From NCBI GenBank assembly GCA_027066365.1, contig JAMONV010000049.1:1-64000 (forward strand): 64,000 nucleotides of DNA, in the 5' to 3' direction. How positions within the stretch are numbered: the first letter of the stretch is position 1; each line of letters begins with the position of its first letter. The DNA is from Flavobacteriales bacterium (GTDB taxonomy: Bacteria; Bacteroidota; Bacteroidia; Flavobacteriales; Flavobacteriaceae). A program made the position numbers and the translations under genes. Below the pieces are notes generated by a model that saw only the letters and a list, made by a program, of their open reading frames with translations, was not told where the DNA came from and did not search any database. Shown here one piece after another: positions 23,367 through 30,905 of the stretch.

Positions 23367-25496
23367 TTACTTATCCTCTTCTTCTTTCTGATGTTGTTTA
23401 ATGAGTTCTTCTTGAATATTGGCGGGAACGGGTTCGTAAGCGGCAAATTTGCTGACGAATGTTCCGCGTCCTTGAGTCAAGGAACGTAAGGAGGTTGAAT
23501 AACGATACATTTCGGCCAAGGGAACTCTTGCTTTGATTTTTTGATATTTTCCGGCACTGTCGATGCCGAGGATAATGGCGCGCCGTCCTTGCAGGTCGGT
23601 CATAACGTTTCCGAGAGCGTCTTCGGGCACTTTGACTTCAACGTCCATTATGGGTTCGAGCAATTTGGGTGCGGCGTCCATAAATGCTTTCTTGAAGGCT
23701 TGAGAACCGGCGATTTTAAAAGAAATATCGTTGGAATCCACCGGGTGCATTTTACCGTCGTAAACGATGACTCGAATATCGCGCACCGGGGATGAAGTCA
23801 TGGGACCGGCTTCCATTACTTCCAAAATACCTTTTTTGATGGAAGGTAAGAAACGGGCGTCTATTGCGCCTCCTACAATGGAATTGACAAATACGAGTTT
23901 TCCTCCCCAAGGCAGATCGTCTTCTTCCACACCGCGAACGGGGAAACCTTCGGGATCGGGCATGTTTTCAAACCAAGGTTCGATTTTCAAATGTACTTCA
24001 CCGAATTGTCCGGCGCCGCCGGATTGCTTTTTATGTCTATAGGATGCGGATGCGGGACGCTGAATGGTTTCGCGGTAGGAGATTTTGGGTTTGTTAAATT
24101 CGGCTTTCAGTCCGAATTCTTTTTTTAGCAACCAATCGACGATTTGCAGGTGGAGTTCGCCTTGTGTTCCGATAAGTTGTTGTTTCATTTCGCGGTCGTA
24201 TTGTACGACTACGGTAGGGTCTTGGCTATGAATTCGCTTGAGCGCTTCTTGGAGTTTTTCCTCGTCGTGTTTGGATTCGGCGTGTACGGCTTTACGCAGG
24301 CGGGGCTGAGGGTATTGTATGGGCCGGAATTTGACGGGTTGATCCGGTGAAGCGAGCGTATCGGAAGTTTCGGTGGATTTTAATTTAATGACGGCACCCA
24401 GGTCGCCTGCAGTCAGCTTGTCCACCGGTTCGCGTTTTTTTCCGTTAACGATGTAAAGTTGTCCCAAATTTTCGGTTTCTCCGGTTCGAGTATTGAGTAA
24501 TTTTTCTCCGGTTTTAACTTCGCCGGATTTCACTTTAAAGTAGGTGACTTTACCGACGTTGGGTTCATAGAATGTTTTGTAGATAAACAAAGAGGCGGGT
24601 GTGCCGGGGTCGGGTTCAATGATTTTTCCTTCTTCGGATTGTTCGGCTGGCAGTTCGCTTGCAGCGGGTGCTACGTTGTCAATAAATCCCATTAATCTTC
24701 CACTTCCCATGTTGTTCAGTGCGGAAACGGCAAATACGGGGAACAATTCGAGATTGAGCATTCCTTTTTTGATTCCGACTTTCATTTCGTCTTCGGACAA
24801 TGTTCCTTTGTCGAAGTAAAGTTCCATAAGTTCTTCGTCGTTTTCGGCGGCTTTTTCCACCAGTTCGTTATGAAGTTCTTCGGCTTTGGTTTTTTCTTCT
24901 TCCGGGATTTCGTGTTTTTCGGGTTTTCCGCCTTCGGGTCTGAAAACATACATTTTCATTTTCAATACGTCGATAATGGCCTGCCGTCCGTCTTTGGTTT
25001 TGTAGGGATATTGAATTTTTATTGCATTTTTTCCGGCTAAATCGACGATGCTTTGAAATGCTTTTTCGAAGTCCGCTTCATCGTGATCGATTTGGTTTAC
25101 TACAAAGACGGTAGGGCGGTGAAAACGTTGAATAAAGTCCCAAATAATTTCGGTTCCCACTTCCACACCGTGTTGTCCGTTGATCACCATGAGTGCGGTG
25201 TCGGAAACGCGCATGGCGGAAATTACTTCACCGATAAAATCATCCAAACCGGGTGTATCGATGATATTGATTTTAAAATTTCGCCATTCGGTATGCAGAG
25301 GTGTGGCGAAAACCGATCCTTGACGTTCTTTTTCGATTTCATGGAAGTCCGAAACGGTATTTTTGTCTTCCACTTTTCCGCGCCGGGGGATGAGACCGGC
25401 TTCGTAGAGCATGGTTTCGGCAAGTGTGGTCTTGCCGCTATGGTGGCTGCCGACAAATGCAACGTTTTTAATGTGTTTTTCGTCGTAAGATTTCAT
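23367..25496 (-). CDS. EF-G paralogue with altered GTPase motifs (EF-G2-like)
   Basis: This 709-residue protein has the full EF-G domain plan: G domain, beta barrel (about 300-380), domain III, domain IV (GGAGQFGEVHLKIEP region) and domain V, plus a charged tail. The G domain is unusual. G1 is GSHHSGKTT (16-24). Switch I has EKERQGSVFA where classical EF-G has ERGITI. G3 is DTPGLDDF with Leu84 in place of the catalytic His. G4 is NQID (134-137) in place of NKxD. Bacteroides EF-G2, from memory, supports translocation without GTP hydrolysis and matters in starvation. A similar role here is inferred. No ribosomal protein genes lie nearby. Confidence 0.85.
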   Translation of the reverse strand: MKSYDEKHIKNVAFVGSHHSGKTTLAETMLYEAGLIPRRGKVEDKNTVSDFHEIEKERQGSVFATPLHTEWRNFKINIIDTPGLDDFIGEVISAMRVSDTALMVINGQHGVEVGTEIIWDFIQRFHRPTVFVVNQIDHDEADFEKAFQSIVDLAGKNAIKIQYPYKTKDGRQAIIDVLKMKMYVFRPEGGKPEKHEIPEEEKTKAEELHNELVEKAAENDEELMELYFDKGTLSEDEMKVGIKKGMLNLELFPVFAVSALNNMGSGRLMGFIDNVAPAASELPAEQSEEGKIIEPDPGTPASLFIYKTFYEPNVGKVTYFKVKSGEVKTGEKLLNTRTGETENLGQLYIVNGKKREPVDKLTAGDLGAVIKLKSTETSDTLASPDQPVKFRPIQYPQPRLRKAVHAESKHDEEKLQEALKRIHSQDPTVVVQYDREMKQQLIGTQGELHLQIVDWLLKKEFGLKAEFNKPKISYRETIQRPASASYRHKKQSGGAGQFGEVHLKIEPWFENMPDPEGFPVRGVEEDDLPWGGKLVFVNSIVGGAIDARFLPSIKKGILEVMEAGPMTSSPVRDIRVIVYDGKMHPVDSNDISFKIAGSQAFKKAFMDAAPKLLEPIMDVEVKVPEDALGNVMTDLQGRRAIILGIDSAGKYQKIKARVPLAEMYRYSTSLRSLTQGRGTFVSKFAAYEPVPANIQEELIKQHQKEEEDK

Positions 25497-27516: not shown

Positions 27517-27546
27517 TTGTTTTAAGATTCATTTTGTTTAAATTTG
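27517..27546 (+). promoter_or_regulatory. Promoter of the T9SS-exported protein gene (TTG-N19-TAAATTTG)
   Basis: TTG at 27517-27519 and TAAATTTG at 27539-27546 are separated by 19 nt, a full match to the Bacteroidota consensus. The ATG at 27570 follows with a leader of about 17-20 nt. Confidence 0.7.
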
Positions 27547-27569
27547 CAGTAATAATAAAACAAAAGGTG

Positions 27570-30500
27570 ATGAGGAAAATACTATTTGTATTTGCAGTTA
27601 TAATAATGACAGGATTACTTTCGGCGCAATGGAATCCCTTTGCAATGTTCGATCAAGGGGCACGCAACGGCATTACGGATAGAGGGAATAAAATCGAAAG
27701 GATTATCGAACAATCGGACAGGTATTGGAAAACACACGATCGGTTTGCACCGCATTCGGGTATAAAACCATACGAGCGCTGGAAATATCAGTGGAAGCCA
27801 TATATACGAATCGGGGCGGACCCGGTTTCCGCAGGATGGGAATTATGGCGTCAAAGAACGCAGCAGAACCGTCCTCAAACCGATGACAGTGATTGGTATT
27901 TGGTAGGCGATCCCCATTATATTCGGCATATTTCCATGGCGGATAAAGGCAGGGTAAATGCGGTTTTAATTGATCCTACGGATTCGAATATTATTTATGT
28001 GGGAGCGCCGGCGGGCGGATTGTGGAAGTCCACCGACGGAGGACATAATTGGACACCGCTCACGGATTTTTTGCCTTCGATAGGGGTTTCGGCTATCGCT
28101 TTGGACCCAACGGACCATAATACGGTTTATATAGGAACCGGAGATGATGATGCGCGGGTGACCTCTTCATCGGGTGTTTGGAAATCGACTGATGGAGGAA
28201 TTACATGGAGTAATATTACGCCGGGATTGAGCTCGGGATTGGATTATATTTCGGGTATTGAAGTAGATCCTGCCAATTCGCAGCATATCGTGATTGGAAC
28301 TTCGAGCGGGGTTTATGTCACGGCTGACGGCGGGACGAACTGGTCACATCCGTTGACTGCGGAAATTAGAGAAATCAGAATGCATCCATCCGACGGTAAT
28401 TATATTTATGCCGTATCAAGGGGAACATTTTACCGTTCTACGGACGGAGGCAATTCGTTTTCGGCCATAAGGAGCGGTTTACCAAACAGTGCTTCGGTTT
28501 TGGTGTTGGATGTTACGCCTGCCGCACCGAATAATGTTTATGTGATAGGTGTGAACGCTTCATCGGGATTTTTAGGTTTATTTGTATCTACCAACCGTGG
28601 TAATTCTTTTATTCAAACCGGAGAAACCGATAATATTATTGAATCGCGACAATGGTGGTATGATTTGGCCATGGCCGTGTCGGATACGGACCCCAATAAG
28701 ATTTTTATGGGTGAACTCAATATTTGGCGTTCGACCGACGGAGGAAACAATTTCTTGCGTATTAACAATTGGAGCATAGCGGACAGTCGTTTTACGCATG
28801 CCGATATTCATTTTATGAGGTATTACAACGGAAAATTGGCGGTCGGTTCCGACGGAGGGATTTATATTAGCGAAGATGACGGTAATAGTTTTACCGGGCA
28901 CAATAATAATTTGGCCATTAGTCAAGTATACCGCGTTTCCGTGTCGCCGGAAGTGACTTCGGAATTTATTTACGGAGGTTTGCAAGATAACGGAGGAATA
29001 GCGGAATATCAAAACCGATGGACGATTTATCATGGAGCCGACGGTATGGACAATGCGATTGATTTGCATAATAAATTCAAGGCATTTAGTTTTATTTATT
29101 ACGGATACGGATTATATGTTACATTCGACGGCGGCGGCAGTATATCACAAGCTATTCAAGGACCGGAAATCGGGAATTGGGTGACACCCTTGCAAATGAG
29201 TCCTGCAAACGAATTATACGCGGGTTATCGCAAGTTATATAAATTGGATCAAAATGCTTGGTCGTGGCAAAGCGTAACCGGTTCATCGTTTAATTCAGCC
29301 GTTGATGTTTTTGAATTTAATCCTTCGAATGCGAACGAGATTTATTTAGGCGAAGGTTCGGATTTATACAAGAGCATCGATGGAGGTGTTAATTTTACAT
29401 TGATTCACTCTTTCTATCAAGATATTAGTAGTATTGCTATCGATCCCGAAAACGGCAGAATTTGGGTAGCTACGGAGAATCACGTTTACGAGTCTTCGGA
29501 CGGTTCCACTTTTACGGATATTTCCGGCGGTATTCCATCGTCGGTTGCCATACGTGATTTGGTTTATCACCGTTTCAGTCCCGATAGCCGTTTGTATGTG
29601 GGAACCGACATAGGCGTTTATCGACGTATCGGTAACGGTCAATTTGAATTATTTAGTAATCATTTGCCTGTGGTTCCTGTTTACGATTTGGAACTTTCGT
29701 TGGAAGCGGGCACATTGACGGCGGCCACCTTCGGCCGGAGTGTTTGGCAAACAACCGTACCGGTTTATTCGCCCGATTACGATTTGAAAGTGGCAGGAGT
29801 AAGGGATTTTCAAGGACGATTTGTTTGTTCACCTGTTTCGCAATTGGATTTTCTCGTTAAAAATAACGGACAAAATGCAATCGGTTCATTTAATTATCAA
29901 TGGAATATTAATGGAAACGGTGGAAGCCAAACGTGGAGCGGAAATTTAAATCCCGGGGATGAAACCGTTATTTCCATACCTTTAAGCACGAGTATCAATC
30001 TAGGCAAAATCAATGTTGATTTTTCGGTTGAACTTTCCAACGACCGTCTTCAAGCCAATAATGTCTATACCGGATATTTTTTGGTAAATAAGTCCGATTC
30101 GGTATTTTTCAGTTATGATTTCGAGCATTCCAGTCAGGATTTATTAACCGTCTCGACGAATAACGATACGAGCGTTTGGTCACTTGCACAGCCCTCGGGA
30201 AGTGTGCTTAATACGGCATCGTCCGGTTCCCGTGCTTATGTAACGATGGCTTCCGGCAATTACCGCAATGCCGATATGGATTATCTGTATTTGCCATGCT
30301 TGGATTTTTCACGGGTGCTAACGGCCGATATTAGCTTCGATTTGGCCTTTGATATTGAAACGGAGTGGGATGCATTATATATGGAATACTCCACCGACGG
30401 AATACATTGGCAAATACTTGGCTCTGCCGCTGATTCGGCTTGGTATAATAATGCCGTTGTGAACGGCGTATGTAGAGGAGCGCAATGGACTGGAACCCGT

Positions 30501-30905
30501 TCGACCATGCAAACCTATAGGCATTCGCTTGATTTTCTTGCCGGTGAACCGCAAGTTTATCTCCGTTTTGTTATGGCTTCGGATGAATCCGTCACGGAAG
30601 AGGGTGCCGTGATAGACGATTTGGAGATTTCGGGACAAATGGGCGTAGAGCATTGGGTTAATGCATCGGCATTGCGCTTGTATCCCAATCCTGCGGGGGC
30701 TTCTTTGAATTTAAAAAACGAAACGGGTTATCCGGTTCAACAATTAAGTATTTACAATGCATCGGGTCAAATGATGCGGACACAAACCTTGCCCCTGAAC
30801 GCAACCGACTTTTCCGTGGATGTGAGCGGGCTTTCGCCGGGATTTTATTTCATAAAAATTATCATCCGGGATCAAATTATTTCGCTTCCTTTTGTAAAAA
30901 AATAG
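27570..30905 (+). CDS. Large secreted protein with VPS10/BNR-type propeller repeats and a T9SS sorting tail
   Basis: This 1111-residue protein has an SPase I signal (MRKILFVFAVIIMTGLLSAQ). About 700 residues follow with repeated propeller-blade motifs of the BNR/sortilin kind: WKSTDGG, YRSTDGG, VSTNRGNSF, YISEDDGNSF and YKSIDGG. Next comes a beta-sandwich region (about 730-1030), and the protein ends with a T9SS type A sorting domain: LRLYPNPAGASLNLK, then LSIYNASGQ and GLSPGFYFIKI. It is therefore exported across the outer membrane and probably attached to the surface. No catalytic motif is seen. Such proteins are often carbohydrate-active or adhesive, but that is not shown here. Confidence 0.88.
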   Translation: MRKILFVFAVIIMTGLLSAQWNPFAMFDQGARNGITDRGNKIERIIEQSDRYWKTHDRFAPHSGIKPYERWKYQWKPYIRIGADPVSAGWELWRQRTQQNRPQTDDSDWYLVGDPHYIRHISMADKGRVNAVLIDPTDSNIIYVGAPAGGLWKSTDGGHNWTPLTDFLPSIGVSAIALDPTDHNTVYIGTGDDDARVTSSSGVWKSTDGGITWSNITPGLSSGLDYISGIEVDPANSQHIVIGTSSGVYVTADGGTNWSHPLTAEIREIRMHPSDGNYIYAVSRGTFYRSTDGGNSFSAIRSGLPNSASVLVLDVTPAAPNNVYVIGVNASSGFLGLFVSTNRGNSFIQTGETDNIIESRQWWYDLAMAVSDTDPNKIFMGELNIWRSTDGGNNFLRINNWSIADSRFTHADIHFMRYYNGKLAVGSDGGIYISEDDGNSFTGHNNNLAISQVYRVSVSPEVTSEFIYGGLQDNGGIAEYQNRWTIYHGADGMDNAIDLHNKFKAFSFIYYGYGLYVTFDGGGSISQAIQGPEIGNWVTPLQMSPANELYAGYRKLYKLDQNAWSWQSVTGSSFNSAVDVFEFNPSNANEIYLGEGSDLYKSIDGGVNFTLIHSFYQDISSIAIDPENGRIWVATENHVYESSDGSTFTDISGGIPSSVAIRDLVYHRFSPDSRLYVGTDIGVYRRIGNGQFELFSNHLPVVPVYDLELSLEAGTLTAATFGRSVWQTTVPVYSPDYDLKVAGVRDFQGRFVCSPVSQLDFLVKNNGQNAIGSFNYQWNINGNGGSQTWSGNLNPGDETVISIPLSTSINLGKINVDFSVELSNDRLQANNVYTGYFLVNKSDSVFFSYDFEHSSQDLLTVSTNNDTSVWSLAQPSGSVLNTASSGSRAYVTMASGNYRNADMDYLYLPCLDFSRVLTADISFDLAFDIETEWDALYMEYSTDGIHWQILGSAADSAWYNNAVVNGVCRGAQWTGTRSTMQTYRHSLDFLAGEPQVYLRFVMASDESVTEEGAVIDDLEISGQMGVEHWVNASALRLYPNPAGASLNLKNETGYPVQQLSIYNASGQMMRTQTLPLNATDFSVDVSGLSPGFYFIKIIIRDQIISLPFVKK

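Follow-up and report, generated by a model that had tools for sequence, protein, structure and literature searches.

The window, the whole 64,000-nucleotide stretch of Flavobacteriales DNA analysed here, carries fusA2, the gene for an elongation factor G2 (EF-G2). The gene encodes a complete five-domain member of the EFG II subfamily and a flavobacterial relative of Bacteroides thetaiotaomicron EF-G2, and it is an ordinary member of the known Bacteroidota EF-G2 family. By analogy with the B. thetaiotaomicron protein, the product is probably a translocase for starvation conditions that hydrolyses little GTP or none. The catalytic His of the G3 motif is missing family-wide, and its absence at position 84 alone does not decide whether GTP is hydrolysed.

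The gene is intact, with 709 codons followed by a stop (Table 1). All five domains (GTPase, II, III, IV and V) were matched by Pfam models over their cut-offs. The predicted model has a mean pLDDT of 88.7 and a pTM of 0.80, with no residue below 50. An earlier note on this DNA had described domains II to V, including domain IV, as intact, and both the domain matches and the predicted model, which is confident throughout, agree with it. The same note had read the G3 motif as DTPGL with Leu84 in place of the EF-G His, the G4 motif as NQID instead of NKxD, and the switch I segment ERGITI as replaced. The translation and the alignments bear out these readings. Leu84 lies opposite His87 of Thermus EF-G (hand-counted numbering), and residues 55 to 63 read EKERQGSVF, compared with EKERGITIT in the EF-G of the same genome. 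The P-loop, a switch I Ser at the Mg position, DxPG, the G4 Asp and the domain IV tip His are retained.

Substitution rates were compared between the window protein and its relatives. The dN was 0.096 for the nearest relative (L079), with saturated synonymous sites (pS 0.75), and 0.170 for L080, with synonymous sites near or at saturation. Domain IV was the slowest-evolving part in all three pairs compared, with domain limits set by us. The gene is under purifying selection, and the low dN with saturated synonymous sites indicates that the protein is in use.

Table 1 Features of the fusA2 gene and its product in the window.
Feature	Position	Strand	Basis
fusA2, elongation factor G2 (EFG II subfamily), 709 aa	23367..25496	-	translation; profile, domain, PDB sequence and Foldseek matches
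G1 / P-loop GSHHSGKT, unaltered, residues 16-23; includes Gly16, one of the type I positions of EFG II	25428..25451	-	translation; alignment; table 1 of PMC3150367
G2 / switch I RQGSV, residues 58-62, replacing RGITI; Ser61 at the Mg-coordinating Thr position	25311..25325	-	translation; alignment
G3 DTPGL, residues 80-84, with Leu84 in place of the catalytic His	25245..25259	-	translation; alignment
G4 NQID, residues 134-137, with Gln135 in place of the Lys of NKxD	25086..25097	-	translation; alignment
Lys489-Lys490, domain IV loop I (HKKQ), EFG II type II positions	24027..24032	-	alignment; table 2 of PMC3150367
Domain IV insertion of 20 residues (508-527), lacking in canonical EF-Gs and in the 14 deep EF-G2s compared	23916..23975	-	alignment
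His584, equivalent of Thermus EF-G His573, domain IV tip, kept	23745..23747	-	alignment

Four EF-G subfamilies, EFG II among them, are distinguished in the available parts of Margus, Remm and Tenson 2011 (PMC3150367). The marks given there for EFG II are a missing RGITI, a Ser at the Mg-coordinating position and a set of own conserved positions, with YGYSV as the G2 variant in Bacteroidetes and rxhSl in Chlorobi. The window protein has RQGSV in place of RGITI and has Ser61. All six positions of table 1 (Gly16, Leu25, Ser61, Thr291, Gly333 and Lys352; 1WDT numbering) match, as G16, L25, S61, T308, G352 and K371. Six of the seven table 2 positions (D216, V250, L264, K471, K472, E513 and G603) match as well, E513 being Lys554 here. 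This gives 12 of 13 positions over both tables, with the Thermus numbers transferred by hand from the PDB-match alignment. The table 2 positions are stated to be 84-96% conserved in EFG II, not absolute (same parts of PMC3150367). Glu at the E513 position was found in none of the 150 insertion-bearing proteins and in 13 of the 14 insertion-free ones. The same source describes conservation of NKxD within EFG II but does not count it among the defining marks. The window protein departs from it, and since the G4 Lys is missing in 111 of the 164 aligned EF-G2s, NQID is no bar to EFG II membership.

The profile scores agree with this assignment. The NF058620 model (EFG2_Bacteroid) was matched over profile positions 1-717 with 1005 bits, a thin margin over the cut-off of 1000. 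The canonical EF-G model TIGR00484 (EFG I) gave 566.6 bits, below its cut-off of 659.4; RGITI and the G3 His of that subfamily are also absent. The best PDB sequence match was ribosome-bound B. thetaiotaomicron EF-G2 (7uvp/8dmf, 800 bits), and the best Foldseek match of the predicted model was 8dmf (TM 0.91, 51% identity). With VIA-align, 8dmf came 11th, with 706 residues aligned at a Z of 49.0 and an rmsd of 3.3; the canonical ribosome-bound EF-Gs ahead of it reached a Z of 54.6 (rmsd 2.8, 683 aligned). This ranking, obtained with a predicted model, points to the EF-G fold and is silent on the subfamily. Kinship with Bacteroides EF-G2, as the earlier note had proposed, is thus supported by NF058620, the PDB match, the Foldseek match to 8dmf and the tree described below. 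In the phylum sample, only 15 genomes, the window's included, exceeded the NF058620 cut-off among the 109 matching at E <= 1e-200, so many EF-G2s may carry a plain elongation factor G annotation.

The PDB sequence table calls the 7uvp/8dmf chain "Tetracycline resistance protein TetQ". This molecule name is the one point in favour of reading the window protein as a tetracycline ribosomal-protection protein. It is contradicted by the title of 8dmf, which names B. thetaiotaomicron EF-G2, and by the resistance models: the window protein reached 147 bits with the TetQ model NF012154 (cut-off 1425) and 286 bits with the general ribosomal-protection model NF012153 (cut-off 775). With both scores far under their cut-offs, the TetQ identity was rejected, and the probability left to it is negligible.

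The diagnostic residues were surveyed in an alignment of 171 proteins. It holds the window protein, 29 and 40 proteins from phylum-sample and further stretches, the best 80 of at least 588 relatives, 14 further EF-G2s, six canonical EF-Gs and the genome's own EF-G. The 14 further EF-G2s, which are insertion-free, and six of the seven canonical EF-Gs were hand-picked from matches to NF009381, a broad EF-G model. The 164 EF-G2s include the window protein; one entry (L023) was the window itself and was dropped. In the phylum sample, 109 of 296 genomes matched NF058620 at E <= 1e-200, a threshold too strict to include the insertion-free branch; 70 of the 109, the window's included, are in the alignment, and the other 39 stand outside it. 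The gene was found in 32 of 149 genomes of the window's family (one per genus), or in 25 of the 125 of good quality.

The G3 His is present in all seven canonical EF-Gs and in none of the 164 EF-G2s, where the position holds Tyr (58), Leu (29), Phe (27), Ser (26), Ala (12), Thr (9), Met (2) or Pro (1). All 164 retain the P-loop GKT, DxPG, Lys489 and the His of domain IV that corresponds to Thermus His573. At position 61, 157 carry Ser and seven carry Thr. The G4 Lys is kept in 53, and the G4 Asp is replaced by Glu in seven and by Ala in one. The seven proteins with Glu (L112, L126, L138, L141, L145, L156 and L157) read NHxE, one of them NQxE, an unusual motif for a GTPase with guanine specificity; in L157 the domain IV insertion is, in addition, longer still. 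The His is also missing beyond Bacteroidota: DTPGY is the G3 sequence in the EF-G2-like proteins from Fusobacterium vincentii, Ilyobacter polytropus and Acetoanaerobium noterae and in Mycobacterium smegmatis EF-G2 (9k0z, identified by its title), and Thermus EF-G-2 has DAPGY. In canonical EF-Gs from Fusobacterium, Acetoanaerobium, E. coli, Cupriavidus and Nonomuraea the motif is DTPGH; the Ilyobacter record contained an EF-G2 only. The missing His is therefore a family-wide character, found in every EFG II protein examined.

The insertion in domain IV is about 20 residues long in 110 proteins, the window's included, at least 29 residues in 40, and absent from 14. A 26-residue region is reportedly singled out in the abstract of Han et al. 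2023, and it may or may not equal this insertion. All 14 insertion-free proteins (L159-L172) lack the His and keep the G4 Lys. They come from the same phylum, outside the window's class, and are strong NF009381 matches that were not among the NF058620 matches at E <= 1e-200.

Phylogenetic analysis was performed with quick trees that carry SH-aLRT support only. A 74-row tree, with the insertion columns included, took in 44 of the 150 insertion-bearing proteins plus L184, 45 in all. EFG II and canonical EF-G were separated with a support of 100, and also with 100 when the insertion columns were removed. The Fusobacteriota and Clostridia EF-G2-like proteins branch outside the Bacteroidota ones. 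All 45 insertion-bearing proteins form one clade (support 100) in this tree, to which the insertion columns themselves contribute. The window protein lies in this clade with proteins of Bacteroides bouchesdurhonensis (L140) and Parabacteroides distasonis (L184); B. thetaiotaomicron EF-G2 was compared by alignment and is not a tree row. The placement in a tree that the earlier note had proposed as a check thus puts the window protein with Bacteroides-type EF-G2s and apart from canonical EF-G, with a support of 100. Its closest companions are two Flavobacteriales MAGs (86% and 77% identity), followed by Flavobacteriaceae and one Cyclobacteriaceae MAG. Two placements stand out from the taxonomy. 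An EF-G2 from a MAG titled Deltaproteobacteria (L091, 4001-6106) falls inside the Bacteroidota ones (support 86), as a mislabelled bin or a gene transfer. L030 (G257), from the window's family, joins L018 and a protein of Chitinophagaceae (support 100) and not its family kin, possibly by gene transfer.

Trees excluding the insertion were read as change counts. With 676 columns, without insertion, G3 and G4, under a mixture model, the fewest changes were one for the His, one for the insertion, one for its nine-residue extension and four for the G4 Lys. With all 171 rows and 673 columns, the counts were one for the His, one for the insertion, two for the extension, eight for the G4 Lys and 25 for the G5 "SA". 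The single His change lies between the subfamilies. Its direction is not given by the tree; it is read as a loss because the G3 His is general among translational GTPases and because a 556-aa protein on contig C27 of the same genome, read as RF3 from its sequence, has DTPGH. These counts suggest the order of events: the His was lost, the insertion was then gained, and the G4 motif then changed repeatedly.

The G4 Lys is labile and changes several times on the tree. L047 reads NKID inside a supported group that otherwise reads NQID, an apparent return to Lys; NKID is also found in L085, L086 and L087. L075 (G128), a lone early branch of the insertion clade, has TKVA at the G4 site. The loss of the G4 Lys showed no link with the loss of the G5 "SA" on independent pairs (same way 1.0, other way 1.2, no difference 4.8; median p 1). 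The missing link argues against a coordinated loss of guanine specificity and, together with the apparent return in L047, against a simple decay of guanine binding.

The genome (G000) comprises 2.03 Mb in 64 contigs and is 98.99% complete. The earlier note had called for a second, canonical fusA elsewhere in the genome and had weighed its reading against the case of a single EF-G. That case fails, since a canonical fusA with AHIDAGKTTT, ERGITIT, DTPGHVDF and NKMD is present on contig C44, and NF009381 counts two EF-Gs in this genome at E <= 1e-100. Beside fusA2 lie a gene for what we take to be a nitronate monooxygenase-type protein and, divergently, one presumably for a formate-tetrahydrofolate ligase, both named from their sequences. 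Neither adjacent gene was found in any of 80 related loci (tblastn, E <= 1e-10, flanks of up to 4 kb per side, some shorter). When four window genes were sought near EF-G2 in these loci, two adjacent and two farther, the sole match was a menD-like gene in L158. The gene context gives no functional hint. A search of the whole window with the consensus core of the BT4338 (Cur) site, as found in the available parts of PMC6989115 and with up to three mismatches, gave two matches (34176 and 41667) where 4.47 are expected by chance; neither is near the gene, and no BT4338 site was found upstream of fusA2. The upstream stretch, inspected by eye, showed no promoter worth claiming. Elsewhere in the window, positions 27534-30905 of the plus strand encode a protein of 1123 aa; read by eye, its start is signal-like, STDGG blades recur in it, and its C-terminus resembles a type IX secretion sorting domain.

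The function of the product is best explained by analogy. In B. thetaiotaomicron, fusA2 mRNA rose 238-fold on carbon limitation, mostly via BT4338, and fusA fell 10-fold, according to the available parts of PMC6989115; starvation induction of EF-G2 is also noted in a passage of PMC10994844. Han et al. 2023 is cited in passages of two later papers, as showing that an EF-G paralogue translocates without GTP hydrolysis (PMC12775393) and that EF-G2 enables GTP-independent translation (PMC10294740). The window protein probably does the same job, because it shares with B. thetaiotaomicron EF-G2 the G4 Gln, the missing His, the G2 Ser and an insertion in the same place. It would bind a guanine nucleotide, dock on the ribosome as EF-G does, and promote tRNA-mRNA translocation mainly by binding and through domain IV, hydrolysing little or no GTP in each cycle. 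It would be made when carbon or energy is short, so that slow, cheap protein synthesis could continue while canonical EF-G falls. Its activity could differ from that of the B. thetaiotaomicron protein, with Leu in place of Ser at the His position and an insertion of 20 instead of 29 residues. Two further results count against the analogy, namely the lack of a BT4338 match near fusA2 and the 11th place of 8dmf in VIA-align.

The non-hydrolysing reading has to be weighed against Thermus EF-G-2, which also lacks the His and is reported to have ribosome-dependent GTPase with low elongation activity (passages of PMC3150367 and PMC9067457). The earlier note had named this case, and the DAPGY of that protein and these reports bear it out. 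Following this example, the window protein could be a translocase of the EFG II type whose GTP hydrolysis on the ribosome persists, with the role of the His supplied by another group or by the ribosome itself. The retained P-loop, Ser61, DxPG and G4 Asp are in keeping with such an enzyme. However, the closest studied relative, B. thetaiotaomicron EF-G2, is cited as non-hydrolysing in the passages named above, and Thermus has a Tyr where Leu84 offers no polar group; we regard continued hydrolysis as unlikely. M. smegmatis EF-G2 points in another direction. It is described in a passage of PMC9067457 as having no GTPase and no part in elongation or recycling, its role being called ambiguous, and it has been seen on the 70S ribosome (title of 9k0z) with DTPGY in G3. 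A ribosome-binding factor that is not a translocase, and whose task in non-growing cells is to park, protect or recycle ribosomes, could be imagined from it. Against this stand the domain IV residues His584 and Lys489, kept in all 164 EF-G2s, and the cited translocation by B. thetaiotaomicron EF-G2; such a factor is very unlikely here. Thermus EF-G-2 is reported active and M. smegmatis EF-G2 inactive, both with Tyr, and for this reason position 84 is not decisive. Of the earlier note's proposal, a low-energy or starvation translocase with weak or absent GTPase, the first part stands as the best reading by analogy with B. thetaiotaomicron EF-G2. Concluding from the missing His that the GTPase is weak or absent is less secure than it seems, because the His is absent from all EFG II proteins examined, active and inactive alike.

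A bolder reading joins these results, and we consider it rather improbable. The nucleotide in Bacteroidota EF-G2 would be at most a structural cofactor, neither fuel nor clock. The His would have been lost once, at or before the sampled EFG II root, and the later domain IV insertion would, by conjecture, have taken over ribosome release. The G4 motif would then have been free to drift, from Lys to Gln or His in most proteins and from Asp to Glu in seven of 164. The missing link between G4 and G5 keeps the odds of this cofactor reading low. If it were true, the window protein and its relatives might function in the presence of GTP, of GDP or of no nucleotide at all, and (p)ppGpp might leave them unaffected, as would be fitting under starvation; the 14 insertion-free, His-less proteins would then be living intermediates.

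A role for the family has already been reported from Bacteroides. Relative to the papers cited, this analysis adds how widely EF-G2 is spread, that the tree needs one His change only, and that insertion-free relatives exist. It corrects a tempting shortcut: the missing His marks all EFG II proteins examined and is no proof for or against GTP hydrolysis. The natural proteins that lack both the His and the insertion would allow the two effects to be separated at the bench. Winogradskyella, Robiginitalea and Chitinophaga, which are not known to live in guts, are among the named relatives with EF-G2 (best 80 of at least 588 matches). Its use is therefore unlikely to be tied to gut colonisation alone.

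Among known systems, the closest is B. thetaiotaomicron EF-G2 (fusA2, BT2167; 8dmf and 7uvp), likewise an EFG II-type protein beside a canonical fusA, with 51% identity to the window protein. Both lack the G3 His and have NQxD in G4, a Ser in G2 and a domain IV insertion. They differ at the His position (Leu in the window protein, Ser in the DCPGS of B. thetaiotaomicron, whose G4 reads NQLD), in G2 (RQGSV compared with YGYSV), in the B. thetaiotaomicron insertion, nine residues longer, and in the BT4338 site, not found at the window gene. Thermus thermophilus EF-G-2 (1wdt and 2dy1), placed in EFG II in the available parts of PMC3150367, shares the missing G3 His. However, it has Tyr at this position, gives only 335 bits with the window protein, and is the one reported to be GTPase-active. 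M. smegmatis EF-G2 (9k0z, seen on the 70S ribosome) is also an EF-G2 without the G3 His; it differs in its Tyr, in its 31% identity and in its reported lack of GTPase and of an elongation or recycling role. Canonical EF-G (EFG I), including the genome's own, shares the five-domain fold, the P-loop GKT and the domain IV tip His. Unlike the window protein, it has the G3 His, NKMD and RGITI, is free of the insertion, and lies on the opposite side of the tree with a support of 100.
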